Of a stretch of DNA of 64,000 nt, positions 894 to 61,962 are shown one piece after another. Each line of letters starts with the position of its first letter. Position 1 is the first letter of the stretch. The notes under the pieces are model-generated. The model ran no database searches. It was not told the origin of the DNA and saw only the letters and a list, made by a program, of their open reading frames with translations. This DNA comes from Kocuria varians (GTDB lineage: Bacteria > Actinomycetota > Actinomycetes > Actinomycetales > Micrococcaceae): contig NZ_BJNW01000014.1 of NCBI RefSeq assembly GCF_006539885.1, positions 1 to 64,000 of the forward strand. The letters run 5' to 3'. The position numbers and the translations under genes were made by a program.

Positions 894-1003
894 GGGGGAA
901 GCATAGGGCCAGCGGACGCTCCGGGCGTGGCGCGGGACACCGTGCGGCGCGTGGCGCGGTGAGGGGGAACGGACCCGGCGGCCCACTGGAGCGGGAGGGC
1001 GGC

Positions 1004-1036
1004 GTCGTCGTCACCAGACAGGAGCGTGACGAGGAC
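1004..1036 (-). terminator. Terminator-like hairpin after bioN
   Basis: An 11-bp stem with one mismatch (1004-1014 with 1026-1036) lies just past the bioN stop. Its left arm overlaps a copy of the dispersed GACGACGCCGC motif (999-1009). There is no T tract, as is usual in high-GC actinobacteria. Confidence 0.45.
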
Positions 1037-1066
1037 GGTTCCCGGGGCAGGAATGCCCGGCATGAC

Positions 1067-1765
1067 CTACTCGAGCCCGCGAGCGGCGAGCGCCTCCCCG
1101 GTGCGGTGGGCGTAGTCCACGGTCGCGATGACCGCGGGGGTGACCAGGCGGACCGGGTCGGTGCGCACCGTGCGGGCGGTCGCGGCGTCGCGCAGGCTGG
1201 AGAGGACGCCGAAGAGCCAGGGGACCGAGCGGATCATGAGGGAGACGGCCAGGCCGATGCGCTCGGGGTCCACACCGATGAGGCGCAGAGGGGAGCACAG
1301 CCGCACGAGCCCGTCGACGAGCTGGGGCAGGGGCGTGGTGGTGAGCAGCAGGCGCGTGAGGGTGACGACCGCGAGCAGGGACAGGACGACGTCCGCCGCG
1401 CGGGCCGGGCCGTTGGCGACGACGTGGTAGACCGCGAGGATCGCCACCAGCAGCGCGAGGGGACGCAGCGAGCGGGCCCAGCGCCGCACTCCGAGCCCGC
1501 ACGCGGCAGACAGCACGAACGTGAGCGCGAGGGTTGCCAGGGAGACTCGCCAGTCGCGGGCGATCATCACGCCCAGGCACGCGCCGAGCACGAGGGCCGC
1601 CTTCAGCCAGAGCGGGCTGCGGTGCAGCGGGGAGGTGCCAGGGACGTAGGTGCCGAGCAGGTCGTCGCCGCGGGAGCGGCCGCCACCCCGGCGTCGGCCC
1701 GGGGCGCGGGCCGCGCCCGGCTCGAGCGTGCTGCCCGGTGACGACGCCGCCGCGCCGCCCGTCAC
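1067..1765 (-). CDS. bioN: Energy-coupling factor transmembrane protein of biotin importer (EcfT/BioN)
   Basis: Scaffold T-component that couples the ATPase to the biotin-binding S-component in the cytoplasmic membrane. The 232-residue product has several hydrophobic segments between residues 50 and 150 and a soluble C-terminal part rich in Arg/Ala, as in CbiQ/EcfT proteins. I chose GTG at 1765 because its GTGA overlaps the stop of the upstream ATPase gene, indicating translational coupling; a farther upstream start at 1801 would overlap the ATPase by 40 bases. Codons 5-9 (AAASS) come from a copy of the dispersed GACGACGCCGC motif, so the Ala/Ser/Gly-rich N-terminus before the first membrane span may be a repeat-derived extension. 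It is the last gene of bioYMN. Confidence 0.85.
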   Translation of the reverse strand: MTGGAAASSPGSTLEPGAARAPGRRRGGGRSRGDDLLGTYVPGTSPLHRSPLWLKAALVLGACLGVMIARDWRVSLATLALTFVLSAACGLGVRRWARSLRPLALLVAILAVYHVVANGPARAADVVLSLLAVVTLTRLLLTTTPLPQLVDGLVRLCSPLRLIGVDPERIGLAVSLMIRSVPWLFGVLSSLRDAATARTVRTDPVRLVTPAVIATVDYAHRTGEALAARGLE

Positions 1766-3166: not shown

Positions 3167-3383
3167 GTTGGCGGCCTCCGCCCGCTTCCGGAGGTGGGAC
3201 GACGACGCCGCGGCCCGGATTTGCGGGCCCGGGTAGACTGGGCGTGTGCCCCGGATCCACGGGGTTTCTGTCTGCCCCGGGAGGGCCGGACGCCGTGACC
3301 GCGTCACGGACGGCACCGGCCCGCGACCTCGTTCCTCCCGGCGGCACCCCCGAGCGACACCGCCCACGAAAGGCCTTGCACCG

Positions 3384-4994: not shown

Positions 4995-5039
4995 ACGACG
5001 CCGCCGCGGGGCCCCGTTTTCGGAGCGCCGCGGCGTCGT
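4995..5039. terminator. Bidirectional terminator hairpin between convergent genes
   Basis: Arms 4995-5004 (ACGACGCCGC) and 5030-5039 are perfect complements. The hairpin sits between the ends of the converging ABC-F and alcohol dehydrogenase genes and is built from two inverted copies of the dispersed motif, one of them with a mismatch in its first base. Confidence 0.65.
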
Positions 5040-5087
5040 CGTGCGTCAGCCGTTGTGGGCCAGACGGTGGGGCCCAGGCGTGGTGCG

Positions 5088-6271: not shown

Positions 6272-6315
6272 GACGACGCCGCGGGGCCCCGGGGACGCGG
6301 CCCCGCGGCGTCGTC
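6272..6315 (-). terminator. Strong terminator hairpin made of two inverted dispersed-motif copies
   Basis: A perfect 17-bp inverted repeat (6272-6288 with 6299-6315) around a 10-nt loop follows the SURF1 gene. Each arm begins with an exact GACGACGCCGC. It also precedes the alcohol dehydrogenase promoter region for the opposite side. Confidence 0.75.
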
Positions 6316-10012: not shown

Positions 10013-10060
10013 GACGGCGACGACGCCGCACGCGAACCGGCGTGCGGCGTCGTCGCCGTC
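10013..10060 (+). terminator. Terminator hairpin after fabG-SDR pair
   Basis: A perfect 21-bp inverted repeat (10013-10033 with 10040-10060) around a 6-nt loop, with an exact GACGACGCCGC in each arm (10019-10029 and 10044-10054). It begins about 30 bp after the SDR stop. Confidence 0.8.
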
Positions 10061-10305: not shown

Positions 10306-10310
10306 CAGAG

Positions 10311-13815: not shown

Positions 13816-13840
13816 GGCGTCGTTCCGGCACGACGACGCC
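13816..13840 (+). terminator. Small terminator-like hairpin after MMPL gene
   Basis: Arms GGCGTCGT (13816-13823) and ACGACGCC (13833-13840) are exact complements with a 9-nt loop. The right arm is part of an exact dispersed motif copy at 13832-13842. Confidence 0.5.
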
Positions 13841-13957
13841 GCTCGGCGGCTAGGGCGGCGCGCCTCACCGCCCGGGCCGGCCGCGCAACGAGCGGGGGAA
13901 CGCCCCGGAACCCTGCCCCGGCGGCGGCGTCACACGGGACGGTGGCGGCCCCCGCCT

Positions 13958-15821: not shown

Positions 15822-16817
15822 ATGGTGGCAGTTCCCTCCGCAATGCTTCCTGCCGAGCTCTTCGGGTCCGGCAGCGCCATGGGCTTCCAGTGGTGGCAGG
15901 TCCTCCTGATCCTGGTCGCGGGTCTGTGGGCCGGCACGATCAACACGATCGTGGGCTCCGGCACGCTCGTGACCTTCCCGGTGCTGGTCACCCTGGGTGT
16001 GCCCCCGGTGACGGCGTCCATGTCCAACGCCATGGGACTGATCGCCGGCAACGTCACCGGCGCGTGGAGCTACCGCAGCGAGCTGAAGGGCCTGAAGCGC
16101 ACGCTGCTGAAGTTGCTGCCGTGCTCGCTCGTGGGCGGTGTGATCGGCGCCTACCTGCTGCTGCACCTTCCCGAGGAGGTCTTCGGCATTGCGGCTCCGT
16201 TCCTCATCGTGGTCGCCCTGCTCTTCGTCGTATTCCAGCCCCGGCTGCAGGCCGCCGTGCGCGCACGCAAGCAGCGTCAGGCACCGGTGACGGCGGGGGA
16301 GAAGGCCGACGACGCCGTGGCGAGCGCCCCGCGTACGACGGCGGCGGGTGGGGTGCCCGCGGGCAGCAACCCCGTGGCCGCGGCGACTTCCGGCGGCACT
16401 GCCGCTGCGGCGTCGTCGTCCCCCGGGACCGTGGACATGGCGGACGGCGCCCGGCAGCCGGCAGTCCTCTACCTGCTCGTCTTCCTGGCCGGCATCTACG
16501 GCGGGTACTTCGTGGCCGCCCAAGGCGTGCTGCTCGTGGGCATCCTCGGGGTGTTCCTGCTGGCGCCCCTGCAGTCGGCCAACGCCGTGAAGAACGCACT
16601 CGTGGCCGCCGTGAACATCGTGGCGGCCCTGTCCTACGTCTTCTTCGCCTTCGACCGCATCAACTGGTGGGTCGTGCTGTTCATCGCCCTGAGCTCCACC
16701 GTGGGCTCGTGGCTCGGCGCGAAGATCGGCAAGCGGATGTCGCCCGTGGCGCTGCGCACCGTGATCGTGCTCCTGGGACTCGTGGCCCTGGCGAACATGG
16801 TCTCCAAGCTGTTCTGA
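15822..16817 (+). CDS. TSUP (TauE/SafE) family membrane permease
   Basis: Probable exporter of sulfite or organosulfur anions, 331 residues, with two halves of about four membrane spans each (residues 20-145 and 210-330). The first half has the family-like GTINTIVGSGTLVTFP motif and the second GIYGGYFVAAQGVLL. A polar central loop of about 60 residues (150-210) is longer than usual, and a dispersed-motif copy at 16407-16417 encodes its AAASSS run. It begins 8 nt after the ABC gene stop and is probably co-transcribed. The start could also be one of two later ATGs (15843 or 15879). Confidence 0.82.
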   Translation: MVAVPSAMLPAELFGSGSAMGFQWWQVLLILVAGLWAGTINTIVGSGTLVTFPVLVTLGVPPVTASMSNAMGLIAGNVTGAWSYRSELKGLKRTLLKLLPCSLVGGVIGAYLLLHLPEEVFGIAAPFLIVVALLFVVFQPRLQAAVRARKQRQAPVTAGEKADDAVASAPRTTAAGGVPAGSNPVAAATSGGTAAAASSSPGTVDMADGARQPAVLYLLVFLAGIYGGYFVAAQGVLLVGILGVFLLAPLQSANAVKNALVAAVNIVAALSYVFFAFDRINWWVVLFIALSSTVGSWLGAKIGKRMSPVALRTVIVLLGLVALANMVSKLF

Positions 16818-17838: not shown

Positions 17839-19947
17839 TCAGCGCGTGGTCCACAGCCCGCGCTGGTGGGTCCAGTGGGCGGTCACCCCGTTGGAGAAGC
17901 GCTGCTGCACCTCGCCGTTCACGGTGTACTCGTCCGTGGTGGGCCAGCCCCAGCCGCGTTCAAGCCCGGCCTTCTTCCACGCGCCCCCGATGGCGCCGCT
18001 CTCCTTGACCGCGTGGGTCCCGGAGGCGCTGCTCCACAGCACCTTGGTCGTGGCGGCACCGTTGCGGTAGACCTGGTAGGAGCCGCCCCGCACGCGGGCC
18101 TCGCCCGTGGCCGGGTAGCCGTAGCCGCGCTCACGGCCCGCGGAGATGAACTTCTTGCCGATCACCGTGGCGTTCTCCACGATGTTCGCGCCGGTCGCGC
18201 TGCTCCAGTAGATGGTGACCTTCCGGCCGTTCTTCACGAACTCCTGGTAGCGCCCGCCGTTCGCGGCGGCGGCCTCGTTCATCACGGGGTTGCCCCACGT
18301 CGCGGCACCGCCGGTGGCACGCCACTTGGCGCCGATGCCTCCGGAGGTGGAGTAGGCGCCCTGCCCGGAGGGAGCCACCGCACGGACGGCGGCCGCGGGG
18401 TTGAGGTTCAGGGAACCGAGCGGTCCACTGGCCGTGGAGGTGATGATCTGCTCGATCCTGGCCGGGGACAGCGACGGGTTGCGCTGCTTCATCATGGCAA
18501 TGGTCCCGGAAACCAGGGGCGTTGCCATGGACGTGCCGTAGAGGTTGCCGTAGGTGGCTGCACCCGGCGTGCTCGTGCCCGCGTTCATGGTGGAGAGCAT
18601 GGGGTTCTGCGCGGTGCCGCCCGGGGCGAGCACGTCCACCACCGCGCCGGTGTTGGAGTAGCTCGCGGTGTGGCCGGTGGTGTCCGAGGCACCCACCACG
18701 ATGGTGTTGCCGCAGTTGGCCGGTGCGGTGCCGCCCGCGTTGACCGCGCTGTTGCCCGCGGCCACGACCACGGGAACGTTGCGGCTCACGGCGGTGTTGA
18801 TCGCGTTCTGCATGGTGGCCCCGCACTCACCGGGGTAGTTCAGGGACATGTTGATCACGGACGCCGGGTTCGCGTTCGCGGGCTGGCCGGCCACGGCCGC
18901 ACCGGAGGACCATGTCACGGCGTCGGCGATGTCCGAGACCCAGCCGTTGGTGCACTTGCCGAGCACGCGCACGGGCAGGATCTTCGCGCCCGGGGCGGCG
19001 CCGGTGATGCCGACGCCGTTGTTCGTCACGCCGGCGGCGAGGCCGGCCACGTGGGTGCCGTGCCACGAGGAGGTGCGGGCCGCCGTGGAGCACTCGCCGG
19101 CCGCACTCCAGTCGCCCTGGTCCTGGGGGTTGGCGTCCCGCAGGTTCCCGTCACGGGAGAGCGCGGTGTCGTTGATGAAGTCACGGCCCGGCAGCACCTT
19201 GGGGTTGAGGTCCCCGTGGGAGGTGATGCCGGTGTCCAGGACCGCGATGGTCTGCCCGTTGCCGCGGGAGAGGTCCCACGCGCCTGGGAAGTCCACCCCG
19301 CTGCTGCTGGGCAGCAGGGTCCACTGGAACTTGGTGTAGGTGTCGTTGGGCATCCAGGACGAGGACGCCAGCCGGTCCGCCTCCGCGTACTCCACAGCGG
19401 GATCCGCCTCGATCTCGGCGACGACCTTCTTCTGCTCCGTCTCGTCCAGCTCACGGTCCAGCTCGATGACGTCCGCCTGCGTGGCGGTGGTCTTCACCCG
19501 GTCGGTGACCTCCGGCGCCTTGGCCTTCAGCGCGTCCCGGGCCGCCTGCTCGACGACCTTCTCTTTGCTCGCCTCGGCGGCGGCGGTGTCGTGGAACTTC
19601 ACGATCACCCGGTTTGACTCCTTGGGCGGGTCGTTCGGCACGGTGCTCGCGGGGGCCTCGGGGCCACTCTCGGGCGCGGCCTGGGCGGGCTGCGCGGAGA
19701 ACGCGAGTGCAGCGGTCACGGCCAGGGGCAGCACGGTGTGGCGCAGCACGCGGGTCAGGGCGGACGGCGACGACGCCGCCGCGGCCACCCGGGCGCCGGC
19801 GGTCGCCGCGGCGTCGTCGTGCGTGGCGCGGGCCGAGCCCTCGCCCGTCCGGGACGCGGTGGCGCGGCGGGTGCGCGAAGTGGACCCGCCCGAGGTGGGC
19901 CGGTGTGAAGTGTGCAGAGGGCAGCGCTGTGACAGGGGTGTGTTCAT
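17839..19947 (-). CDS. Secreted S8 subtilisin-like serine protease with LGFP cell-wall repeats
   Basis: Exported protease of 702 residues. A hydrophobic signal segment ending in QAAP-like residues lies at about 68-92, after an unusually long polar N-terminus; an I9 propeptide follows (RVIVKFHDT...EADRLA), then the catalytic domain with VLDTGIT (Asp), HGTHVAG (His), AAGNS (oxyanion Asn) and GTSMATP (Ser). The last 170 residues hold LGFP-type repeats (GYGYPATGE, GWGWPTTDE), which bind cell wall. The start is uncertain: ATG 19947 lacks a good ribosome site, and a later start nearer the signal peptide is possible. A TAGGAT at 20027-20032 may be its -10. Two inverted dispersed-motif copies (19769-19779, 19808-19818) lie inside the pre-signal coding region. 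Confidence 0.88.
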   Translation of the reverse strand: MNTPLSQRCPLHTSHRPTSGGSTSRTRRATASRTGEGSARATHDDAAATAGARVAAAASSPSALTRVLRHTVLPLAVTAALAFSAQPAQAAPESGPEAPASTVPNDPPKESNRVIVKFHDTAAAEASKEKVVEQAARDALKAKAPEVTDRVKTTATQADVIELDRELDETEQKKVVAEIEADPAVEYAEADRLASSSWMPNDTYTKFQWTLLPSSSGVDFPGAWDLSRGNGQTIAVLDTGITSHGDLNPKVLPGRDFINDTALSRDGNLRDANPQDQGDWSAAGECSTAARTSSWHGTHVAGLAAGVTNNGVGITGAAPGAKILPVRVLGKCTNGWVSDIADAVTWSSGAAVAGQPANANPASVINMSLNYPGECGATMQNAINTAVSRNVPVVVAAGNSAVNAGGTAPANCGNTIVVGASDTTGHTASYSNTGAVVDVLAPGGTAQNPMLSTMNAGTSTPGAATYGNLYGTSMATPLVSGTIAMMKQRNPSLSPARIEQIITSTASGPLGSLNLNPAAAVRAVAPSGQGAYSTSGGIGAKWRATGGAATWGNPVMNEAAAANGGRYQEFVKNGRKVTIYWSSATGANIVENATVIGKKFISAGRERGYGYPATGEARVRGGSYQVYRNGAATTKVLWSSASGTHAVKESGAIGGAWKKAGLERGWGWPTTDEYTVNGEVQQRFSNGVTAHWTHQRGLWTTR

Positions 19948-22956: not shown

Positions 22957-23031
22957 GTCGCCTCTCCGGAGGACTACGGCGCCGCGGCGCCGCGGCGGCG
23001 TCGTCCTCCGTGGTCGGTAGTCCCTTTCGGG

Positions 23032-24426: not shown

Positions 24427-25773
24427 CTAGGACCGCCGCCCCAGCGCCAGATACTTCCACCCGGCATCCTGCCACGCCGCCGGGTCCAGCACGTTGCGCC
24501 CGTCGACGATCGTGGGAGTGGCCACCAGCGGGGCGACACGGCGGGGGTCCATGTCCCGGAACTCCCGCCACTCGGTGAGCAGCAGAGTCACCTGTGCACC
24601 GGTGACGGCGGCGTCGAGCGAGTCCACGTAGTCCAGGCGCGGGTAGCGCTGTGCGGCGTTGGCGTTGGCCTGGGGGTCGTAGAGGCGCACGTCTGCCCCC
24701 ATCGAGTGCAGGCGGGCGGCGATGTCCAGGGCGGGGGAGTCGCGGACGTCGTCGGAGTCGGGTTTGAAGGCGGCGCCGAGCACCGCGATCTGCGCTCCGT
24801 GCAGCGTCCCGCCGCACTCGTGGACGACGAGCTGCACCGTGTGCTCGCGGCGGCGCAGGTTGATGTCGTCCACCTCCGCGAGAAACCGCAGGGACTGGTC
24901 CAGCCCGAGCTCGGAGGCGCGGGCCCGCAGGGCACGGATGTCCTTCGGCAGGCAGCCGCCGCCGAAGCCCACACCCGCGTTGAGGAACTTCCGTCCGATC
25001 CGCTCGTCCAGCCCGATCGCGTCCGCGAGCGTGCGGATGTCACCGCCCACGGTCTCCGTGATCTCGGACAGCGCGTTGATGAAGCTGATCTTGGTGGCCA
25101 GGAAGCTGTTCGCGGCCACCTTCACGAGTTCCGCGGTCTCGTAGTCGGTCACGATGAACGGGGTGTCCTCCGCCAGCTGCTGCGCATAGACCTCCCGCAG
25201 CACCGCCTCGGCGCGCCGGCCCCCGGGAGCCGGCCGCGCGGCGTCGTCGTGCTCCACACCCAGCACCATGCGGTCCGGGTGCAGCGTGTCCTCCACCGCG
25301 TGGCCCTCCCGGAGGAACTCCGGGTTCCACGCGAGATCCACGGTCACGCCCGGGGACGACGCCGCCCGCGCCACCTCCCGCAGGCGCGCCGCGGACCCCA
25401 CGGGAACCGTTGACTTGCCCGCAATCACGCAGTCGTGGTCCGCGGCGCGCGCGATCTGCTCCACCGCGGAGTCCACGTAGGTCATGTCCGCGGCGTGACC
25501 GTTGCGCTTCTGCGGCGTGCCCACCCCGATGAAGTGGACGTCACCGAACGCCCCGGCCTCCCCGTACGAGGTGGTGAACCGCACCGCGCCGGTGGCCACG
25601 TGCTTGCGCAGCAGCTCCGGCAGACCGGGCTCGTGGAACGGGACCCGCCCCGCGTTCAGCGCATCGATCTTGGAACGGTCCACGTCCAGACCGAGCACCT
25701 CGTGCCCGAGCTCGGCCATGGCCACGGCGTGCGTGGCGCCCAGGTACCCGGTGCCGATGACGGTCATGCGCAT
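24427..25773 (-). CDS. UDP-glucose 6-dehydrogenase
   Basis: Makes UDP-glucuronate for surface polysaccharide. The 448-residue protein opens with GTGYLGATHA, has the catalytic cysteine C274 in GFGGGCLPKD, and GAAFKPDSDDVRDSP near the C-terminus, the UDP-glucose dehydrogenase versions of these motifs. Two exact copies of the dispersed 11-mer lie inside: one encodes AASSP near residue 137 and one HDDAARPAPGG near residue 175; the second looks like an extra surface loop absent from typical relatives. GGAAGG lies about 11 nt before ATG 25773. The gene converges with wecC and lies 46 bp after wecB in the same direction, probably one operon. Confidence 0.9.
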   Translation of the reverse strand: MRMTVIGTGYLGATHAVAMAELGHEVLGLDVDRSKIDALNAGRVPFHEPGLPELLRKHVATGAVRFTTSYGEAGAFGDVHFIGVGTPQKRNGHAADMTYVDSAVEQIARAADHDCVIAGKSTVPVGSAARLREVARAASSPGVTVDLAWNPEFLREGHAVEDTLHPDRMVLGVEHDDAARPAPGGRRAEAVLREVYAQQLAEDTPFIVTDYETAELVKVAANSFLATKISFINALSEITETVGGDIRTLADAIGLDERIGRKFLNAGVGFGGGCLPKDIRALRARASELGLDQSLRFLAEVDDINLRRREHTVQLVVHECGGTLHGAQIAVLGAAFKPDSDDVRDSPALDIAARLHSMGADVRLYDPQANANAAQRYPRLDYVDSLDAAVTGAQVTLLLTEWREFRDMDPRRVAPLVATPTIVDGRNVLDPAAWQDAGWKYLALGRRS

Positions 25774-25819: not shown

Positions 25820-26968
25820 TCAGGCCTGCGACTCGAAATCCGCGATTCGCTCGCCCACACCGAACATCTCGGCGATCGCGGCCAGGGAGCGCTCGGCTGC
25901 CCGGCCGTCACCGTAGGGGTTCACGGCGTTGGCCATCTCGCGGTAGGCGGCGTCGTCGTTGAGCAGGCGGTCCACCTCGGTGACGATGCGCTCCTCGTCC
26001 GTGCCGATCAGCTTCACGGTGCCCGCGGTCACCGCCTCCGGGCGCTCGGTGTTCTCGCGCATCACGAGCACGGGCTTGCCGAGGGACGGTGCCTCCTCCT
26101 GCACCCCGCCGGAGTCCGTGAGCACCACGTGCGCCACGGAGAGCATGCGGGTGAACTCGCCGTAGGCCAGCGGCTCGGTGACCACCACGTTGGGCTTGCC
26201 CTCGATGGCGGGCAGCACGGCCTCGCGCACCACGGGGTTGCGGTGGGCGGGCAGCACGATGGTGAGGTCCGGCTCGGCGTCCGCGATCCGCGCCAGGGCG
26301 CGCCCGACGCCGCGCATCGCCTCACCCTGGTTCTCCCGGCGGTGGGTGGTCACCAGCAGCACGCGCTTGCCGGAAGAGGCGATCTCCTCGAGCTGGGGAT
26401 CGGTGAAGGGCAGCTGCTGCTCCACGGTGTGCAGCAGGGCGTCGATCACCGTGTTGCCGGTGACCACCACGTCCTGCTCCGCAATGGCCTCGCGCAGCAG
26501 GTTCTCCTTGGAGGTGCTCGTGGGCGCCAGGTGCAGGGACGTGATCTGCGAGGTGATCTTGCGGTTCGCCTCCTCCGGGAACGGGGAGAAGAGGTCGAAG
26601 GAGCGCAGCCCGGCCTCCGCGTGGATCACCGGGATGCCCCGGTAGAACGCGGCGATCGCGCCGGCGGTGGACGTGGTGGTGTCGCCCTGGACCACCACGG
26701 CGTCCGGAGGAGTCTCCGCGAAGATCTTGTCGAGACCCTCCACGGTGCGCGTGAGCACGCCGTTGAGGGTCTGGCGCGGCTGGATGATGTTCAGATCGTG
26801 GTCCGGGGTGATGCCGAAGATCTCGTTGACCTGGTCGAGCATCTCGCGGTGCTGACCGGTCACCGTGACCACGCACTCGAAGTCGGGGCTGTCCTGCAAA
26901 ACCTTGACGATGGGCGCCATCTTGATGGCCTCCGGGCGCGTGCCGTAGATCGGCATGATCGTGAACAC
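25820..26968 (-). CDS. wecB: UDP-N-acetylglucosamine 2-epimerase (non-hydrolysing)
   Basis: Interconverts UDP-GlcNAc and UDP-ManNAc, feeding WecC. The 382-residue protein shows YGTRPEAIKMAPIV at the N-terminus, VQGDTTT, HAEAGLRSF, LVTTHRREN, TDSGGVQEEAP and MRENTERPEA, all standard for the family. GTG 26968 is preceded by AAGGA with 9 nt spacing and gives the usual N-terminus; the open frame continues upstream without similarity. A dispersed-motif copy (25947-25957) encodes the NDDAAY stretch, where a DxAAY is common anyway. Likely co-transcribed with the UDP-glucose dehydrogenase gene. Confidence 0.93.
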   Translation of the reverse strand: MFTIMPIYGTRPEAIKMAPIVKVLQDSPDFECVVTVTGQHREMLDQVNEIFGITPDHDLNIIQPRQTLNGVLTRTVEGLDKIFAETPPDAVVVQGDTTTSTAGAIAAFYRGIPVIHAEAGLRSFDLFSPFPEEANRKITSQITSLHLAPTSTSKENLLREAIAEQDVVVTGNTVIDALLHTVEQQLPFTDPQLEEIASSGKRVLLVTTHRRENQGEAMRGVGRALARIADAEPDLTIVLPAHRNPVVREAVLPAIEGKPNVVVTEPLAYGEFTRMLSVAHVVLTDSGGVQEEAPSLGKPVLVMRENTERPEAVTAGTVKLIGTDEERIVTEVDRLLNDDAAYREMANAVNPYGDGRAAERSLAAIAEMFGVGERIADFESQA

Positions 26969-29704: not shown

Positions 29705-31081
29705 TTACAGTGTGCGGTGCAGGTAGACGGCCATGAAGCCCGTGGCCACGGCCACGATGAGCACGAGCGTGGTGGCCAGCGGCTCCACGCCCAGCAGGAC
29801 CACGCCCAGCACCACAAGGATCGCTGTGAGCACCAGCAGCCCCGTCACGAGCGGCGTCATGCCGCCCACCAGCGTCTTCGCGTCCGACGACGACGCCGCC
29901 CGCGTCCCGGTGCCCTCGCGGGTCTCGCCCGCGGGGACCAGTTCGCCGTCGTGGCCGTCCATGAGCGCGGCCACGCCGCCGTCTGCGGCGGGGGCCTCCG
30001 CGGTGGCGGTGCGGGCCGCGGTGCTGCCGGGGCCGCCAGCGTGGCCCGCACCGGGCGCACCGGTTGAGGCGGCGTCGGTCGGGGAGGCCGCGGTGGAGGC
30101 GGCGGCGCGACGCTGCTCCGTGCCCCGGGAACGCTCACCGAAGAATCGTGCGGCGAAACCGCGCGCGCCGGTGGGGGCGGGGGTGTCCGGGTGGGCGGCC
30201 ACGAAGCCCTTGCGCCACTTCTTGGCGTTGCGGCCGTGGTCCGACTCCACCGCCACGTAGGCCGGGGGGACGTCGAAGTGCTCGGCGTCCGGGAGCAGCT
30301 CGGGGACGTCGTTGGGGAGCTCCTCGAACCACTGTGCCGGCACCTCGGAGGCGCGGACGGATTGCAGGGTCATGGACACCTCGAACGAAGATCCTCGAAT
30401 CGTCCCCCAAACTGCGGTCAGCAGGTCGTGCTCGAACGCGTAGTGGATGATCGGGATGAACTGCTCGGACATCTGGGTGGAGAGCCGGCCCACCTGCTTG
30501 CGCTCGTAGAGCACGTCCACGGTGTCCACGGTGACGCCGTGGCTGTTGCGGACCTTGTTGACCTCCAGGGTGAGGATCACGCGGCCCTCGCCGGAGGCCG
30601 GGACGATCGAGTGCAGGTACTCGGCGAACTCCTGCTCGTCCAGGACCTTGATGGAGGATCCCTGGGGCAGGACGGCGGCCTGGGCGGGGGCGGTGTTCAG
30701 GGGGAAGAGCAGGTCCGGGGGAGCGATGTCGATCACCGCGCGGGAGTCCACCTCCGCCACGCCGTCCTGCCGCAGCAGGTCTGCCTCCAGGTGGAGGGGA
30801 ACCACGGGGGTGTAGCCGGAGGCGATCACGCGGGACAGCGGGTGCCAGTAGCGGTGGGCGTCCTGCGCGCTGAGGTGCGCGACCTTGTTCTCTCCCACGC
30901 GCACCGAGACGGTGCGGGGGTCGAAGGGGTTGTCCGGTTCCGGGACCAGCGCCGCGAGCCCGTGCCAGGTCTGGGCGCGCCCCGCGGAGAGTCCGCCGAA
31001 CACCCGCATGATCTCGGTGTCGTAGAAGTTCTCCGTGACGACGTCCAAGGATCCCCGGTCGTTGAGCGCGTAATCGGTCAT
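29705..31081 (-). CDS. HIRAN-like domain protein with C-terminal membrane anchor
   Basis: A 458-residue protein. Residues about 18-75 (ENFYDTEIMRVFGG... EPDNPFDPRTVSVRVGENKVAHLS) resemble a HIRAN domain, which binds DNA ends or nucleic acids in helicases and nucleases; a central domain of about 200 residues is unrecognised; a long Ala/Thr/Gly/Pro-rich linker (about 330-400) leads to two membrane spans at the very C-terminus (about 405-455). A dispersed-motif copy at 29889-29899 encodes AASSS in the linker. ATG 31081 has GAGGGAG just upstream. A membrane-tethered HIRAN domain is unusual; function unknown. Confidence 0.72.
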   Translation of the reverse strand: MTDYALNDRGSLDVVTENFYDTEIMRVFGGLSAGRAQTWHGLAALVPEPDNPFDPRTVSVRVGENKVAHLSAQDAHRYWHPLSRVIASGYTPVVPLHLEADLLRQDGVAEVDSRAVIDIAPPDLLFPLNTAPAQAAVLPQGSSIKVLDEQEFAEYLHSIVPASGEGRVILTLEVNKVRNSHGVTVDTVDVLYERKQVGRLSTQMSEQFIPIIHYAFEHDLLTAVWGTIRGSSFEVSMTLQSVRASEVPAQWFEELPNDVPELLPDAEHFDVPPAYVAVESDHGRNAKKWRKGFVAAHPDTPAPTGARGFAARFFGERSRGTEQRRAAASTAASPTDAASTGAPGAGHAGGPGSTAARTATAEAPAADGGVAALMDGHDGELVPAGETREGTGTRAASSSDAKTLVGGMTPLVTGLLVLTAILVVLGVVLLGVEPLATTLVLIVAVATGFMAVYLHRTL

Positions 31082-33883: not shown

Positions 33884-33932
33884 GACGACGCCGCGGGGCG
33901 CGGCTGGCGCGCCGCCCCGCCGCGGCGTCGTC
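33884..33932. repeat. Inverted pair of the dispersed 11-mer
   Basis: Exact GACGACGCCGC at 33884-33894 and its complement at 33922-33932, with further GC-rich pairing between them. The glgC terminator is 120 bp away, so this hairpin lies against the pepN promoter rather than at a gene end. Confidence 0.6.
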
Positions 33933-35548: not shown

Positions 35549-36742
35549 GTGCGAGTAGACATCCTGAGCAAAGAATTCCCGCCGGCCATCTACGGGGGAG
35601 CGGGGGTGCACGTGGCCGAGCTCTCCCGCGTGCTCGCACCGCTCGTGGACCTCAACGTCCGCTGCTTCGGGGAGCCGCGCGAACCGGACTTCCACGGCGC
35701 CCACGTCACGGCCTACCCGGTGCCCGCCGAGCTCGACGCCGCCAACGCCGCCGTCCAGACCCTCGGCGTGGACCTCACCATGATCCAGGACATCGAGGGC
35801 GCGGACCTGGTCCACTCCCACACCTGGTACGCCAACATGGGCGGGCACCTCTCCTCGCTCATGTACGACATCCCCCACGTGCTCTCCGCGCACTCCCTGG
35901 AGCCCCTGCGCCCCTGGAAGACCGAGCAGCTCGGCGGCGGGTACCGCATATCCTCCTTCGTGGAGAAGACCTCCTACGAGGCCGCCGCCGCGATCATCGC
36001 CGTCTCGGAGGGCATGCGCCAGGACATCCTGCGCTCCTACCCGAACGTGGACCCGGAGCGCGTGCGCACCGTCCACAACGGCATCGACGTCTCCCAGTGG
36101 CACCGCGACACGGACACCGACGTCCTCGACGAGTACGGCATCGACCCCGAACGCCCCTCCGTGGTCTTCGTGGGCCGCGTGACCCGCCAGAAGGGTGTGC
36201 CCTACCTGCTGCGCGCCGCCCTCCAGCTGCCCCCGGAGGTCCAGCTCGTGCTGTGCGCCGGCGCCGCGGACACCCCCGAGCTCGCCGCAGAGGTCAACGG
36301 CCTCATCGAGCAGCTGCGCCGCGAACGCGACGGCGTCGTACTCATCGAGAAGATGCTCCCGCGCCGCGAGGTCATCCAGATCCTCTCCCACGCCACCGCG
36401 TTCGCGTGCCCCTCCGTCTACGAGCCCCTCGGCATCGTCAACCTGGAGGCCATGGCCTGCGGAGCGGCCGTCGTCGCCTCCGCCACCGGCGGCATCCCCG
36501 AGGTCGTCGTGCACGACGAGACCGGGCTGCTCGTCCCCATCGAACAGGTCACGGACGGCACCGGCACGCCCCTGGACCCCCAGAAGTTCGTCGACGACTT
36601 CGCCGCCGCCCTCACCGAGGTCGTCACCGACCCCGCCCGCGCCCGCCGCATGGGCGAGGCAGGACGACGCCGCGTGGCGGAGCACTTTGCGTGGGAGTCG
36701 ATCGCCGAGCAGACGCTCGAGGTCTACCGCTCGGTGCTCTGA
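35549..36742 (+). CDS. glgA: Glycogen synthase / ADP-glucose glucosyltransferase, actinobacterial GT4 type
   Basis: A 397-residue GT-B glycosyltransferase with KEFPPAIYGGAGVHV at the N-terminus, HSHTWYA, the donor-site VFVGRVTRQKGV and E-x7-E in PSVYEPLGIVNLEAMACG. This is the short actinobacterial type; the mycobacterial counterpart has been renamed GlgM because it mainly makes maltose-1-phosphate from ADP-glucose. I chose GTG 35549 because the family sequence begins there (VRVDILSKEFPP) and a -10 hexamer lies 6 nt before it. The gene overlaps the end of the converging tetR gene by 19 bp. Confidence 0.88.
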   Translation: MRVDILSKEFPPAIYGGAGVHVAELSRVLAPLVDLNVRCFGEPREPDFHGAHVTAYPVPAELDAANAAVQTLGVDLTMIQDIEGADLVHSHTWYANMGGHLSSLMYDIPHVLSAHSLEPLRPWKTEQLGGGYRISSFVEKTSYEAAAAIIAVSEGMRQDILRSYPNVDPERVRTVHNGIDVSQWHRDTDTDVLDEYGIDPERPSVVFVGRVTRQKGVPYLLRAALQLPPEVQLVLCAGAADTPELAAEVNGLIEQLRRERDGVVLIEKMLPRREVIQILSHATAFACPSVYEPLGIVNLEAMACGAAVVASATGGIPEVVVHDETGLLVPIEQVTDGTGTPLDPQKFVDDFAAALTEVVTDPARARRMGEAGRRRVAEHFAWESIAEQTLEVYRSVL

Positions 36743-38718: not shown

Positions 38719-39333
38719 ACTCCGGCCGCACCCGGCACGAGAGCGCGGCGCCGCCGTCAGCGACCAGCACGCACGACGACGCCGCGCCACCCGCCCTCCG
38801 CACCGTCACCTCGGTGGGGAGGGCAGGTTCGTGTGTGCGCTGCGCACCGCGTCGAGTGGGACGAGTGACCGGAAGCAGGGGGCGCCCCCGGGGGCTGAAT
38901 CTGGTGCAGATCCTGTGTGCGGGCGGGGCCCCTTCCGGTCTACTTTACATAATGTACATTATCGGACATTGGGATATCCGCGGTGATGCGCTGATAGACC
39001 ATGATCAGCCGTTGAGAGGTTCGACTCTCAGGAAGCCCCGGCAGCGACGCGACAACAACCTCACACGGCGCCCGAGTTGTCACACGGGTCTCCAACGCGG
39101 GCCGGACGTCGACTGACCGCGCAACGACCACACGCCACTCCGTCCGCCCCGCACATCCGACTGGTACAAACGGTGCGCCGCAGAATGCCACGTGCGAGCA
39201 GATCGTCGTTCGGCGTCCTACTGGTCACCGTCGGCGCGTTCTGTGCGACGTCCATGGTGCGACCCCGCGACATCCGGTTAGATGGATGTGACCTACCGCA
39301 TTCGTGCGTTTCCACCATGTGAAAGGAGCTGGG
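38719..39333. other. 615 bp without a supported gene (decayed accessory strip)
   Basis: None of the short open frames here looks like a protein or has a good start. The stretch contains a dispersed-motif copy (38775-38785), a 14-bp AT-rich palindrome (38949-38962), and two small hairpins at 38991-39008 (CTGAT/ATCAG) and about 39015-39032 (TGAGAG-GTTCGA-CTCTCA) that look vaguely like tRNA arms but do not fold into a tRNA. The next gene is broken, so the strip may be remnant DNA. Confidence 0.5.
38949..38962. promoter_or_regulatory. Perfect 14-bp palindrome ATAATGTACATTAT
   Basis: Twelve of 14 bases are A or T in a genome of roughly 70% GC, and the palindrome is exact. This is the form of a dimeric repressor operator, but no intact regulated gene follows on either strand. 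Confidence 0.5.
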
Positions 39334-51792: not shown

Positions 51793-53223
51793 TCATTCCG
51801 CGGGTGAGGAGCCGGGGGACGTCTCCTGCTCCGCGAGTGCGGAGAGCACGAGGGCCTCCGCGGTGACGGCGTGCAGGAAGTCCTCGATGTGCAGGGACTC
51901 GTTGGCGCTGTGGGCCCGGGTGTCCGGGTCCTCGATGCCGGTGATGAGGATCTGCGCCTCAGGGTACGCCTCGGTGAGGGTCGCGGTGAAGGGGATGGAG
52001 CCGCCCATGCCCGCGGTCACGGCGGGGCGGCCCCACGCCTCCTCGAAGGCCCACAGGGCGATCCGGGAGCTCACGGCGTCCGTGTCCGCGCGGAAGGACT
52101 GCCCGGTCTCCTCCAGGTGGAAGGTCACGTGCGCACCGAAGGGAGCGTGCTCCTCCACGTGCCTGCGCAGCGCCTCCCCCGCGACCTTCGGGTCCTGCCC
52201 GGGAGCGATCCGCAGGCTCAGCTTGGCCCGGGCCGTGGCGGCGATGGTGTTGGAGGCCTTGTCCACCTCCGTGACGTCGATGCCCGTGACCGAGATGGCC
52301 GGCTGGGTCCAGATCCGCGAGGAGATGGAGCCGCGCCCGGCCAGCCGAACGCCGTCGAGCACGCCCGCGTCCGCGCGGAACCGGGCCTCGTCATAGTCGA
52401 CGTCCGTGTGGTCCTCGCTCAGCAGGCCCTCGACGGCCACGGCACCGTCGTCGTCGTGCAGCGTGGCGATCAGGCGGGAGAGGACGGTGGGCGCGTCCAG
52501 GATCGGTCCCCCGAACATCCCGGAGTGCACGGCGTGGTCCAGGACCGCGACCTCCACGATGCCGCCGACGACGCCGCGCAGGCTCGTGGTCAGCGCCGGC
52601 ACCCCGACCTCCCAGTTCGCGGAGTCGGCGATCACGATGACGTCCGCGGCGAGCTTGTCGCGGTGGGCCGCGAGGAACGCCTCGAAACCGGGCGAGCCGG
52701 CCTCCTCCTCGCCCTCGACGAAGACGGTGATGCCGAGGCCCGGCTCGCTGCCGTGCTGGGCGAAGAACGCGCGCAGGGCGCCCACGTGGGCCATCACGCC
52801 GGCCTTGTCGTCCGCGGCACCACGCCCCCAGAGCCGACCGTCCTTCTCGACGGCCTCGAACGGCTCGGTCTCCCACAGCTCCCGCTTTCCGGGGGGCTGC
52901 ACGTCGTGGTGAGCGTAGAGCAGGATCGTGGGGCGCCCGGGTGCCGCGGCCTTGCGGGCGACGACGGCGGGGTGCCCGGGCCTGTCCTCGGAGTCGGTGG
53001 GGGCGCGCAGCACCTCGACCCCGTCGAAGGGCAGCTCGCGCAGCAGCCCGGCGACGGCCTCCGCGCTGCGGTCGAGGTCTGCGGCGTCGAAGGAGTCCCA
53101 CGCGATCCCCGGAATGGCCACGAGGGCACCGAGGTCCTCCAGCAGGGCTGCGCGTGAGTCGACGACGCTGCGGCGCAGGGCCTCGACGGTTTCGGAACCG
53201 GGTCGGGTGAAGTCTGTGCTCAT
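51793..53223 (-). CDS. M20 family dipeptidase/metallopeptidase
   Basis: Di-zinc peptidase of 476 residues, cytosolic. Metal ligands are in YAHHDVQPPG (His, Asp), GRGAADDKAGV (Asp), the catalytic GEEEAGSPG (Glu pair), and a late AHSANE histidine; a dimerisation lid domain with HSGMFGG lies between. These fit the M20 dipeptidase (carnosinase-like) group. ATG 53223 has TATGGT at 7 nt upstream, so it may be leaderless. An exact 11-mer (52567-52577) in this gene encodes ordinary conserved sequence (RGVVGG). Confidence 0.9.
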   Translation of the reverse strand: MSTDFTRPGSETVEALRRSVVDSRAALLEDLGALVAIPGIAWDSFDAADLDRSAEAVAGLLRELPFDGVEVLRAPTDSEDRPGHPAVVARKAAAPGRPTILLYAHHDVQPPGKRELWETEPFEAVEKDGRLWGRGAADDKAGVMAHVGALRAFFAQHGSEPGLGITVFVEGEEEAGSPGFEAFLAAHRDKLAADVIVIADSANWEVGVPALTTSLRGVVGGIVEVAVLDHAVHSGMFGGPILDAPTVLSRLIATLHDDDGAVAVEGLLSEDHTDVDYDEARFRADAGVLDGVRLAGRGSISSRIWTQPAISVTGIDVTEVDKASNTIAATARAKLSLRIAPGQDPKVAGEALRRHVEEHAPFGAHVTFHLEETGQSFRADTDAVSSRIALWAFEEAWGRPAVTAGMGGSIPFTATLTEAYPEAQILITGIEDPDTRAHSANESLHIEDFLHAVTAEALVLSALAEQETSPGSSPAE

Positions 53224-53304: not shown

Positions 53305-53937
53305 GTGTTTGGACGCAAGAAGGCAGATCAATCCTCGGGTTCCACCGCCGTGCGCGCAGCGGCCGTGAAGGACTCCCCCGCACCCTCCGCCCACGGGGCA
53401 CAGGGCCGCGACGGCCACTCCCCGCAGGCCAAGAAGGGCAGGCCCACGCCCACCCGCAAGGAGCAGGAGGCCGCGCGGCGTCGTCCGCTGATCCCGGAGG
53501 ACCGCAAGGCCGCGAAGGCCGAGTCCAAGCTGGCCGTGCGTGAGCAGCGCAAGGTGGCCCAGGCCGGCATGGCGGCCGGCGACGAGCGCTACCTCGGCCC
53601 GCGCGACGCCGGGCCCCAGCGCCGGTTCGCCCGCGACTGGGTGGACTCCCGCTTCAACATCGGCGAGTACGTGCTGATCTTCCTGCTGCTGATCTTCGTG
53701 CTCATGTGGCTGCCCGTGCAGTCCGTGGCCCTGACCCTGATCTGGATCGTCTACGGCTACATCCTGCTCTGCGTCCTCGACGCCGTGATCATGACCACGC
53801 GGATGCACGCGGCCATGCGCCGCAAATTCGGAACGGTCCAGCGCGGCACCCGCTGGTACGCCGCCATGCGCACGTTCACCATCCGCCGCCTGCGCCTTCC
53901 CAAGCCCCAGGTGCGCCGGGGTGAGCGTCCCGCCTGA
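53305..53937 (+). CDS. DUF3043 family membrane protein
   Basis: A 210-residue protein: FGRKK start, a basic Lys/Arg/Ala-rich cytoplasmic region up to about residue 105 with TPTRKEQEAARRRPL, the conserved RRFARDWVDSR, two membrane spans (about 118-160), and a basic tail. This is DUF3043, found throughout actinobacteria; its function is unknown. It is divergent from the M20 gene and, like it, probably leaderless. A dispersed-motif copy (53475-53485) encodes the conserved ARRRPL stretch. Confidence 0.88.
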   Translation: MFGRKKADQSSGSTAVRAAAVKDSPAPSAHGAQGRDGHSPQAKKGRPTPTRKEQEAARRRPLIPEDRKAAKAESKLAVREQRKVAQAGMAAGDERYLGPRDAGPQRRFARDWVDSRFNIGEYVLIFLLLIFVLMWLPVQSVALTLIWIVYGYILLCVLDAVIMTTRMHAAMRRKFGTVQRGTRWYAAMRTFTIRRLRLPKPQVRRGERPA

Positions 53938-57074: not shown

Positions 57075-57102
57075 ACGACGCCCGCCGGCGCCGCGGCGTC
57101 GT
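57075..57102 (-). terminator. Terminator-like hairpin after leuA
   Basis: ACGACGCC (57075-57082) pairs with GGCGTCGT (57095-57102); the loop can pair further. The right arm is part of an exact dispersed-motif copy (57093-57103). It lies 130 bp past the leuA stop. Confidence 0.45.
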
Positions 57103-57229
57103 CGGCCCCTTGCACGCCACCCCTCTCCCACACCACGGACCCTCGCCGCCGTCGATCGGAGCTCGGACAGGCAACGGCCCCCGCCCTCACGAGGAAGACC
57201 GGGGCCGCAGGAGGATCAGAACCGACGCA

Positions 57230-59114: not shown

Positions 59115-59168
59115 GTGATCCAACGTACCACCCGGTCCGACGGGCACCCGCGCGTTACGAACGGCGGC

Positions 59169-60851
59169 TCACTCGTCCGCGGTGGCCTGGCACGTGAACT
59201 GCTCGGCGGTCTGGCCCTGGAGGTCGTCCGGGAGGCTGGAGTTCTGGTCCATCTTCTCGCCGCTGCGGAAGTCCTGCCCAACGGCCACCTCCACGCCCTG
59301 CACGTCGTAGGACGCGGTGAGCTGGCTCGAGGGGATGTTGAGCAGCTCGGCGACGTCGTCCGCCGCCAGTGCCCAGCTGGGGTTGTAGAAGATCTGCGTG
59401 GCCGCCAGCTGCGCCCCGGAGGACTCGGTCTTCGCCTGGTCGTACCCTGCCTTCTCGAGCACAGAGACGAGCTGGCTGTCCCGGCCGCCGGTCTCCGATC
59501 GGTTGCTCACGGCGATCGGCACGATCTTCGGGTCCAGGGCCGGTGCGGTGGAGCTGGGGCTCGCGCTCGGCGCGGCGGAGGGCGACGTCGCCGCAGCACC
59601 CGGGTGGGCCGCGCCGCCCGACGCACCGGACGAGGGCGTGGCGGACGCGGAGGCATCCTCGGGGTCCGTGACCGAGACGTCCTGGCGCAAGGTGGTGAAG
59701 AGCTTCTCCGCCTTGGCGTCGTCGAGCTGCAGCCGGTTCGGGTTCTCCGGGTACTCCTCCGTGGGAACGGTCACGAACGCGATCTTGCCCGGGTCGATGC
59801 CCTTGAGGGTCCCGGCGATGCCCACGAGCGTGGGGATGGAGGTCAGGCCCTCGTCCACGTGCAGGTTCTGGGTCATTACCTCGGCGATGTGGTAGAGCTC
59901 CGGCAGGTTGGTGAGGGTGCCGTCCTTCTGGATCTTGCGGGTCAGGGAGGCGAGGAACGACTGCTGCGAGCGGATACGGGACTCGTCCCCGCCGTTGCCG
60001 AACGCCGCGCGGGACCGCAGGAACGCCAGCGCCTGCTCGCCCTCCACGCTGGAGATCCCGGCGGGCAGCTTCAGCCCGGACTTGGGGTCGTCCACGGCGT
60101 TGTTGACGCAGACCTCCACGCCACCCACGGCGGAGGAGAGCTCCTTGACCGCGTTGAAGTCCGCGAGCATGAAGTGGTCGATGTTCACGCCGGTGAGCTT
60201 GTTGATGGCCGCCACGGTGCAGCCGGGACCGCCGCGCTCCACGGCGCTGTTGAGCATGTCCTTCTGCGCCGGGTACACCTTGCCGCTCTTCGGATCGGTG
60301 CACTGCGGGATCTCGACCATGAGGTCGCGCGGGAAGGAGACCACGGAGACGGCATCGCGCTTCTCGGTCACGTGCACGAGCATCATGACGTCCGTGCGGC
60401 CCTCGGCGTCGTCCTCGCTGCCGTACTCCGAGTTGCCGGTGCCGCTGCGGGTGTCCGAGCCCATGACGAGGATGTCGAGCGGACCGTCGTCCACGGCGTC
60501 CGCACCGTCCGAGAGGTTCAGGGGGCTGGACTGCAGGTTGCCCGTGAGCCACAGCGCCGCGATCCCGCCGATGCCTATGGCCGCGATCAGCGCGAGCACC
60601 ACGAGGATGACGGTGACCTTGCGGGCGGAGGCGCGGTGCTCGCGTGCCCGGTGGTGGCGCCCGGTCTGGGCGAGGTCGAAGGGCTCACCCTCCCGGTCGG
60701 TGCGGCGCGCGGGGTGCGCGGCCCAGGGGGCCTGGCTCTCCTGCGCGCGGCGTCCGCGACGGGGTATTGGGCTGCGATCCACCGGTGACGTCTCCTGGGG
60801 GTCTTCCTCGGGCTGGGGCGATCCGGGCGCGTACCGGGACCGCTTGGTCAC
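59169..60851 (-). CDS. LytR-CpsA-Psr (LCP) family protein with LytR C-terminal domain
   Basis: Second LCP ligase of the window, 560 residues. A basic, Pro/Arg-rich cytoplasmic head of about 75 residues precedes one span (about 78-102), then the LCP domain (VMGSDTRSG, GRTDVMMLVHV, SFPRDLMVEIP, KLTGV, QALAFLRSR and ESRIRSQQ), a long Ala/Ser/Pro linker (about 400-440) and a LytR_C domain near 445-540 (KIVPIAVSNRS... YDVQGVEVAVG). GTG 60851 is 38 nt after the era stop, so it may be the last gene of the phoH-ybeY-era transcript. Differences from the 21889 protein suggest another polymer or regulation. Confidence 0.9.
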   Translation of the reverse strand: MTKRSRYAPGSPQPEEDPQETSPVDRSPIPRRGRRAQESQAPWAAHPARRTDREGEPFDLAQTGRHHRAREHRASARKVTVILVVLALIAAIGIGGIAALWLTGNLQSSPLNLSDGADAVDDGPLDILVMGSDTRSGTGNSEYGSEDDAEGRTDVMMLVHVTEKRDAVSVVSFPRDLMVEIPQCTDPKSGKVYPAQKDMLNSAVERGGPGCTVAAINKLTGVNIDHFMLADFNAVKELSSAVGGVEVCVNNAVDDPKSGLKLPAGISSVEGEQALAFLRSRAAFGNGGDESRIRSQQSFLASLTRKIQKDGTLTNLPELYHIAEVMTQNLHVDEGLTSIPTLVGIAGTLKGIDPGKIAFVTVPTEEYPENPNRLQLDDAKAEKLFTTLRQDVSVTDPEDASASATPSSGASGGAAHPGAAATSPSAAPSASPSSTAPALDPKIVPIAVSNRSETGGRDSQLVSVLEKAGYDQAKTESSGAQLAATQIFYNPSWALAADDVAELLNIPSSQLTASYDVQGVEVAVGQDFRSGEKMDQNSSLPDDLQGQTAEQFTCQATADE

Positions 60852-60888
60852 GATACGCCCCGCGCCTCGGTGCTGGGTGTGGGGCGGC

Positions 60889-61962
60889 TCAGAATCCGAG
60901 CTTGGAGAGCTGCTTGGGATCGCGCTGCCACTCCTTGGCGACCTTCACGTGCAGGTCCAGGTAGATCCTGGTGCCCAGCAGCGACTCGATCTGCCCGCGG
61001 GCCTGCGTGCCGATCTCCCGCAGCCGCGCCCCGCGCTTGCCGATCACGATCGCCTTCTGCGACGAGCGCTCCACGTACACGCTCGCGTGGACGTCGAGCA
61101 TGGGGTTGTCCGCGGGCCGGCCCTCACGCTCGGAGACCTCGTCCACAACCACGGCCAGGGAGTGCGGCAGCTCGTCGCGCACGCCCTCCAGCGCGGCCTC
61201 TCGGATCAGCTCGGCCATCATGGTGATCTCGGGCTCGTCCGTGAGGTCGCCCTCCGGGTACAGGGGCGGAGACTTGGGCATCAGGGACACCAGCAGCTGG
61301 GCCAGCTCCTCCATCTGGTAGCCGTCCGTGGCGCTCACGGGGATCACGTGCGCCCAGCCGGCGTCGGCCTCCTCGGCGCCGGACGTGGCGCCCGCGCCGC
61401 TCCCCCCGGCACCCCGGGAACCCTTGCCGCCCGACGACGCCGCCTCGCGCCGTCGGCGCCGCGCCTCACGGTGGGCGCGCTCCTCCCCCACGACCTCGCG
61501 GCCCAGCTCGCTCACGGCGATCAGCTGCTCCGCGAGCCGGTCCCCGGGGACGAGGTCCGCCTTGGTGACGATGGCGACCACGGGGGTGCGGCCCACGGCC
61601 GCCACGACCTGCTGCGCGATGAACTTGTCGCCGGGGCCGACCTTCTGGTCCGCGGGGACGCAGAAGCCGATCACGTCCACCTGTCCGAGCGTCTCGGCCA
61701 CGACGTCGTTCAGGCGCTGGCCCAGCAGCGTGCGCGGCCGGTGCAGACCCGGGGTGTCCACGAGGATCAGCTGACCGTCCTCGCGGTGCACGATGCCCCG
61801 GATGGTGTGCCGGGTGGTCTGCGGCCGGTTGGAGGTGATCGCGACCTTGCGGCCCACGAGCGCGTTGGTGAGCGTGGACTTGCCCACGTTGGGGCGCCCC
61901 ACGAACACGGCGAAACCGGCCCGGAAGTCCGGATCGTGCTCTGCGGTGAGATCCTGCGTCAT
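60889..61962 (-). CDS. era: GTPase Era
   Basis: Ras-like GTPase with a KH domain that assists 16S rRNA and 30S maturation. The G motifs are GRPNVGKST, the switch T in PQTTRH, DTPG, TKAD and SAT; the C-terminal KH domain has IVIGKRGARLREIG. The protein is 357 residues, about 55 longer than usual: between TKAD and SAT lies an Arg-rich, then Gly/Ser/Ala-rich insert (about residues 160-205) that contains AASSGG encoded by an exact dispersed-motif copy (61433-61443). It stands in the conserved phoH-ybeY-era block; the usual CBS-domain (CorC-like) gene between ybeY and era is absent. Confidence 0.95.
   Translation of the reverse strand: MTQDLTAEHDPDFRAGFAVFVGRPNVGKSTLTNALVGRKVAITSNRPQTTRHTIRGIVHREDGQLILVDTPGLHRPRTLLGQRLNDVVAETLGQVDVIGFCVPADQKVGPGDKFIAQQVVAAVGRTPVVAIVTKADLVPGDRLAEQLIAVSELGREVVGEERAHREARRRRREAASSGGKGSRGAGGSGAGATSGAEEADAGWAHVIPVSATDGYQMEELAQLLVSLMPKSPPLYPEGDLTDEPEITMMAELIREAALEGVRDELPHSLAVVVDEVSEREGRPADNPMLDVHASVYVERSSQKAIVIGKRGARLREIGTQARGQIESLLGTRIYLDLHVKVAKEWQRDPKQLSKLGF

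Follow-up and report, generated by a model that had tools for sequence, protein, structure and literature searches.

The Neisseriaceae and the Pasteurellaceae are the only bacteria known to discriminate their own DNA by means of short uptake words, about 9 to 12 nucleotides (nt) long in both families, according to a 2025 paper (PMC12616744). The DNA uptake sequences (DUS) of the Neisseriaceae occupy permissive sites, form pairs in terminators, retain an invariant core, and fall into dialects that track phylogeny (PMC3630211), and the aberrant DUS content of islands has been used for finding integrative and conjugative elements (PMC7371117). For Neisseria and Haemophilus, a density of one copy per kb is quoted, and Veillonella is reported to show a DNA-source bias, but no word of at least 10 bp with at least 100 copies was found there (PMC5397411). 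In Micrococcus luteus, Flp pili are required for transformation, and comEA and comEC are present (PMC6370729); the passages found by term searches of M. luteus papers and reviews make no mention of an uptake sequence in this species and name only Neisseria. Here we report on an 11-mer, GACGACGCCGC, that is dispersed through a 64-kb window of Kocuria varians DNA (the whole stretch analyzed, positions 1 to 64,000 of contig NZ_BJNW01000014.1) and that, judging from sequence comparisons, is probably a DNA uptake sequence of the Kocuria rhizophila-marina-salsicia-carniphila clade.

The genome to which the window belongs (2,843,576 bases in 48 contigs, with the window on contig 14) contains 823 copies of GACGACGCCGC (418 + 405), or about one per 3.5 kb. 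The reversed word occurs 16 times (7 + 9) and a codon-permuted control, GACGCCGACGC, 32 times; in the remaining Kocuria genomes GACGCCGACGC is present in 14 to 65 copies, save for two genomes with 7 and 8. When 11-mers with at least 20 occurrences were compared in a 464-kb sample of the genome, GACGACGCCGC was the most over-represented, with 125 copies observed versus 6.9 expected under an order-4 Markov model. It again ranked first in an 816-kb sample (209 observed versus 11.8 expected, z 56), in which the highest z among words without a seven-base stretch in common with it was 11 (words seen at least 15 times). The least low of the permuted controls was a second triplet permutation, GCCGACGACGC, which has the same CG spacing and is able to overlap the extended motif; it was found 29 times in the 816 kb versus 209 times for GACGACGCCGC. 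Genes were called with a script of our own rather than a standard gene finder. On these calls, the 464-kb sample contains 41 intergenic copies versus 0.68 expected and 81 coding copies versus 19.8 expected after synonymous codon shuffling. The same excess was seen in a related, complete, motif-rich chromosome (G013; 2,697,540 bases, sampled in 21 spread stretches totaling 440 kb), with 40 intergenic copies versus 0.46 expected and 93 coding copies versus 26.3 expected. Of the 81 coding copies in our own sample, 44 lie outside the Asp-Asp-Ala frame, where 2.3 were expected.

The abundance of the word divides the 27 Kocuria genomes into two groups with no intermediates: 12 motif-rich genomes with 335 to 823 copies and 15 motif-poor genomes with 15 to 141. 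Motif-rich genomes include those of K. salsicia (471 copies), K. rhizophila TA68 (626), K. tytonicola (628), K. tytonis (516), K. marina (633 and 538), K. carniphila (543), and two Kocuria sp. strains (335 and 337), and none of the 227 genomes from other genera of the family exceeds 193 copies. We placed the genomes in a tree of the GlgC-like protein encoded at positions 34128-35372 of the window, which is 96% identical to its K. salsicia homolog and 92 to 95% identical to those of K. rhizophila, K. tytonicola, K. tytonis, and K. marina. Nine motif-rich genomes and the window form a single clade in this tree (support 98/99), which leaves out the motif-rich genomes G001 and G013 and includes 9 of the 15 motif-poor ones. 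G+C content is not the driver of this distribution, because at the sampled locus it amounts to only about 64% in the motif-rich K. carniphila and in the two genomes nearest to it.

Individual sites were compared between genomes as well. Seven of the 23 copies that could be aligned between our genome and the G013 sample are identical, versus 2.2 expected from the identity of their flanks; against all relatives, 8 of 34 are identical versus 4.4 expected, and in the reverse direction 8 of 33 copies of the relatives are identical in our genome versus 3.3 expected. The 80 bases around the 23 sites aligned with G013 have a mean identity of 73%, compared with 83% for the aligned DNA overall. The copies therefore lie in variable DNA, where they are somewhat better kept than their surroundings and are often replaced.

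Contig 1 of the genome contains a 52.6-kb stretch without GACGACGCCGC. Within this stretch, a region of 49.8 kb (G000 contig 1, positions 25591-75378, L032-L034), which we delimited on the basis of its genes, starting with a large serine recombinase and running to the next gene of chromosomal appearance, is devoid of the word, when 13.6 to 14.7 copies would be expected at the surrounding rate (P ~1e-6) and 0.6 from the composition of the region itself. It encodes, besides the recombinase, a TrwC-type MobF relaxase with 70% identity to a plasmid-encoded protein of Microbacterium, an M23 peptidase, and one or more MFS transporters, and on this gene content it is a putative integrated conjugative element. 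A ParB-like assignment for one of its proteins was dropped, as the protein has no Pfam match.

The word is sharply bounded: beyond the 11-mer, GAC is weakly favored immediately upstream and G four bases downstream, and the flanks are otherwise near background, on which ground we rejected a dispersed repeat resembling repetitive extragenic palindromes or miniature inverted-repeat transposable elements. Among words free of overlap with exact copies, those with one mismatch at position 1, 2, 5, 8, or 11 occur at 1.7 to 11 times the Markov background, and those with one mismatch within the CG steps (positions 3-4, 6-7, and 9-10) in most cases stay close to background or fall below it; departures from this rule are clearest at position 10 in our own genome (18 versus 4.7) and position 3 in G013 (12 versus 5.8). 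In these counts, which are not measurements of uptake, we see the trace that would be expected from selective recognition of a CG-n-CG-n-CG core.

A near-fixed core with tolerant spacers resembles protein recognition in general, and the word might instead be the binding site of a clade-specific protein for chromosome organization, segregation, or global regulation. Copies were found in 21 of the 21 sampled stretches of G013, and their spacing in our own genome is, apart from close pairs, random (coefficient of variation, 1.06), both of which would suit such a protein. We nevertheless regard this explanation as unlikely, since about two-thirds of the copies are genic (81 of 125 in the 464 kb, with 41 intergenic and 3 at edges, and 93 of 134 in G013), clustering near the origin or terminus and polarity were not seen in the G013 sample, and hairpin pairs are unexpected for such a site. 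Coding copies appear to lean mildly toward gene ends, and 59 of the 81 in our own genome and 83 of the 93 in G013 encode Asp-Asp-Ala or Ala-Ala-Ser.

The polarity of the word bears on a second alternative, a Chi-like signal for recombination or a signal for chromosome translocation of the FtsK-orienting polar sequence (KOPS) type. Base 1 of G013 is the start of dnaA, identified by its Pfam DnaA domains. With the terminus taken as halfway, the first half of the chromosome has 38 forward and 39 reverse copies and the second half has 31 and 26; thus, there was no replichore polarity, and no clustering at the origin or terminus, in the 440-kb sample. A density of about one copy per 3.5 kb is within the range of Chi, and the one foreign island without copies would also be compatible with such a signal, but a Chi- or KOPS-like function is made very improbable by the lack of strand bias by replichore on G013, and the inverted pairs are not anticipated by it.

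Those pairs are most readily discussed along with a third alternative, that the word seeds terminators and spreads because it makes a good hairpin stem behind genes. In the 816 kb, 12 neighboring pairs lie within 60 bp versus 3.2 expected; all 12 are inverted, and 11 share one order; in G013, 4 pairs have one order and 3 the other. The full complement is present within 60 nt at 12 of the 41 intergenic sites of our genome and 4 of the 40 of G013. Seeding could account for such pairs and is insufficient to explain the coding copies: the majority of copies are single, 65 to 69% lie within genes in both orientations, and a hairpin stem has no need of a fixed 11-mer. We therefore give this explanation very little weight. 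Finally, that GACGACGCCGC is a by-product of high G+C content and codon usage for Asp-Asp-Ala-Ala and Ala-Ala-Ser-Ser is refuted, to near certainty, by the 60-fold intergenic and 4-fold coding excess, by the mere 32 copies of the codon-permuted word, and by the roughly 10-fold difference in count between species of similar G+C content, even though the sense Asp-Asp-Ala frame alone contributes about 17.5 of the 19.8 expected coding copies and motif-poor Kocuria still have 15 to 141.

The genome also encodes machinery through which a DNA uptake sequence could act. The genes for ComEA (SLBB and helix-hairpin-helix domains) and ComEC adjoin each other on the contig of the window, 13 to 17 kb past its end. 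G013 has a tad cluster with the order tadA-tadB-tadC-pilin-tadE-tadF, in which the TadA-type ATPase and TadE are backed by Pfam and the other genes are named by order and likeness; TadF, with no Pfam match, is among the latter. A ComEC domain was found in 26 of the 27 Kocuria genomes and TadE likewise in 26, with both misses in one 76%-complete genome. The identity of TadF to its G013 counterpart is 72 to 84% in the other 11 motif-rich genomes and 41 to 57% in 13 of the 15 motif-poor ones, and TadF was not found in the remaining 2. For TadA the corresponding values are 79 to 89% in 10 of the 11 motif-rich genomes and 70 to 81% in 12 of the 15 motif-poor ones, the remaining genomes yielding only paralogs or pieces, so that this motor ATPase hardly separates the two groups. 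The divergence of TadF, which splits motif-rich from motif-poor genomes, may be taken as a lead on the receptor and as a lead only; it fits equally with fast pilin evolution along a single branch of the tree.

These results suggest the following model for GACGACGCCGC as a DNA uptake sequence. The word would be bound at the cell surface by a protein, for which a Tad minor pilin or some other protein associated with the pilus is the likeliest candidate; the pilus would pull DNA that bears it inward; ComEA and ComEC would hand the DNA on into the cell; and recombination of the preferentially imported kin DNA would maintain and spread the word by molecular drive. The reader of the word is thus probably a component of the Tad pilus. 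The features that GACGACGCCGC shares with established uptake sequences are over-representation of a word in the range of 9 to 12 nt, presence on both strands without replichore polarity in the G013 sample, tolerant coding and intergenic sites that in part form inverted pairs behind genes, a core of low variation, absence from mobile DNA (one island), and competence genes in the genome. A preliminary description of the window had proposed a DNA uptake signal, and its proposal gains support, at the level of sequence, from the enrichment beyond codon usage and the lack of polarity. Two checks that it had suggested turned out in the same direction: the count is far above the Markov, synonymous-codon, and codon-permuted expectations, and the sample of G013 does not favor the Chi or KOPS alternative that it had named. 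Its statement that M. luteus is transformable holds as well (PMC6370729), Kocuria, the source of the window, being a relative in the same family.

Several observations weigh against an uptake function. At one copy per 3.5 kb, the word is sparser than the uptake words of Neisseria and Haemophilus, for which one per kb is quoted (PMC5397411); the absence of the word from acquired mobile DNA rests on a single island, and none of 6 copies compared with K. salsicia, the nearest relative by GlgC, is identical there, which indicates turnover of sites. Motif-poor Kocuria have comEC and tadE just as motif-rich ones do, so that the distribution of the machinery is not that of the motif. The competence gene set of K. 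rhizophila 301 was judged incomplete or highly divergent (PMC13388538), and searches of open-licence papers turned up no account of Kocuria being naturally transformed. Nor did they turn up an uptake sequence described for M. luteus, Kocuria, or Actinobacteria, and a text search of open-licence papers for the letters of GACGACGCCGC gave no match.

We put forward a wider proposal only tentatively, as it is more doubtful than probable: that the Micrococcaceae possess an uptake-sequence system of independent origin, the third of its kind and the first among Gram-positive bacteria. Its reader would be a component of the Tad/Flp pilus with specificity for CG-n-CG-n-CG, and dialects acting as species barriers would be set by the base that separates the second CG step from the third (C in the Kocuria clade and perhaps G in several other genera). 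The word CGACGACGGCG could possibly be the G dialect, or could be partly codon driven. It occurs in 1,088 copies in genome G208, 948 in G228, and 685 to 778 in the genus g19, with 16 to 32 copies of reversed controls. Within Kocuria, most motif-poor genomes contain more of it than do motif-rich ones (23 to 394 copies in 9 listed motif-poor versus 47 to 172 in 9 listed motif-rich genomes). There was no close inverted pair of CGACGACGGCG among the matches listed for G228 (50 places), and the matches listed for G208 all lie on the forward strand (100 of 100) and hence are unable to reveal pairs. If GACGACGCCGC is an uptake sequence, it would add a third case to the two known families, from a different phylum and probably using another type of pilus, and would imply that self-tagging of DNA arose repeatedly. 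It would also provide a system whose word appears to have become abundant within a single genus, a direct test of the coevolution of uptake words and receptors, and a word whose addition to donor DNA might ease the engineering of these bacteria.

Within the window, GACGACGCCGC occurs 25 times, with 13 and 12 copies on the two strands. The 24 starts given in the preliminary description are all correct, and one copy, at 36663..36673 (+), had been overlooked; its expectation of about 0.2 copies was too low, as 100 dinucleotide-preserving shuffles of the window gave a mean of 0.54 (maximum, 3) and the codon-aware expectation, scaled from the result of synonymous shuffling, is about 3. Our rough gene caller places 13 copies outside and 12 inside genes, in agreement with the earlier division into 13 and 11 once the overlooked genic copy is added. 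There are four inverted pairs. Three are intergenic hairpins that fold strongly relative to shuffled sequences: 6272..6315 (6272 +, 6305 -; z -4.1), 10019..10054 (10019 +, 10044 -; z -8.0), which has convergent genes on either side, and 33884..33932 (33884 +, 33922 -; z -4.9), downstream of the GlgC-like gene. The fourth, at 19769..19818 (19769 +, 19808 -), lies within a subtilase gene upstream of the catalytic domain and is not significant (z -1.6). The earlier impression of many inverted pairs in terminators thus applies to three pairs, or 6 of the 25 copies, because the fourth is inside a gene.

The remaining intergenic copies are at 999..1009 (-), 3201..3211 (+), 5030..5040 (-, flanked by convergent genes), 13832..13842 (+, about 20 bp past the stop codon of an MMPL-family gene), 22995..23005 (-), 38775..38785 (+), and 57093..57103 (-, downstream of a LeuA-like gene at 57230-58984 on the minus strand). 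Single copies within coding sequences (CDS) are read most often as Ala-Ala-Ser-Ser, at 1740..1750 (+, in CDS 1067-1765 on the minus strand), 16407..16417 (-, in CDS 15843-16817 on the plus strand), 25355..25365 (+, in CDS 24427-25773 on the minus strand), 29889..29899 (+, in CDS 29705-31081 on the minus strand), and 61433..61443 (+, in CDS 60889-61962 on the minus strand). Asp-Asp-Ala-Ala is encoded at 25238..25248 (-, also in CDS 24427-25773) and at 25947..25957 (-, in CDS 25820-26968 on the minus strand), a copy that a simpler gene caller placed outside genes. The overlooked copy reads Arg-Arg-Arg in CDS 35606-36742 on the plus strand, that at 52567..52577 (+) reads Gly-Val-Val in the peptidase M20 CDS 51793-53223 on the minus strand, and that at 53475..53485 (-) lies in a predicted CDS, 53365-53937 on the plus strand, for which the gene call is unsure. 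The longest motif-free stretch of the window, from 38.8 to 52.6 kb, contains genes for cytochrome bc and an aa3-type oxidase (subunits identified by Pfam; 39000-52500). This gap is unlike that of the island on contig 1; its conserved genes would offer little tolerant sequence.

Other repeated words came to light in a k-mer survey of further genera, which used small samples. The gene caller failed on several samples that were small or of low G+C content; results for G104, G166, and G236 (called intergenic share, 0.66 to 0.98) were not relied on, and G219, G227, G029, G037, G040, G173, and G090 (0.2 to 6.5 kb each) were excluded. In G244 (L162-L165), from another genus of the family, CGAGGTGGCA, often as GCGAGGTGGCA, occurs 16 times in 80 kb versus 0.4 expected, and 15 of 16 copies of the 9-mer GAGGTGGCA are intergenic by rough gene calls. 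In G083 (L151-L154), of the same genus, AGGACGACGCC occurs 8 times in 80 kb versus 0.09 expected and AGGACGCCGCC 6 times versus 0.2, and these words are possibly related to that of G244. GTTTCACGTGAA and TTTCACGTGAAA are each present 14 times in the initial 40 kb of the main contig of G236 (L200-L201), along with words like TTATCCACA; we take these to be parS and DnaA-box consensus words, probably from an origin-proximal parS cluster. Overlapping words around AGGCGCGGGGA and CGCGGGGAGCA in G020 (L145-L148; 21 to 23 copies in 80 kb) are probably a clustered regularly interspaced short palindromic repeat (CRISPR) array, and words such as ACGGCACAGGAC in G152 (L192-L193; 13 in 40 kb, mainly intergenic) are candidates for a tandem repeat or array.

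Among known systems, GACGACGCCGC is most like the DUS of the Neisseriaceae, for which the minor pilin ComP is the receptor. Both are short words with hundreds of copies on both strands, in coding and intergenic DNA; both form inverted pairs behind genes, have a core of low variation, are bound to a clade, and leave an island without the host word (PMC3630211, PMC7371117). They differ in that the core is CTG in the Neisseriaceae and CG-n-CG-n-CG in Kocuria, that the host here is an actinobacterium, and that two quoted Neisseriaceae genomes have 2,245 and 3,269 copies (PMC3630211), compared with 823 here. The pilus genes found in Kocuria are of the Tad/Flp type; no search was made for type IVa pili or ComP. 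The uptake signal sequences of the Pasteurellaceae follow the same logic and have the same word length as GACGACGCCGC, although the word is another one, the predicted receptor is a type IV minor pilin, and uptake discrimination is known there and proposed for Kocuria. The Flp/Tad-dependent transformation of M. luteus is alike in that it occurs in the same family and in bacteria with comEA, comEC, and tad genes (PMC6370729).

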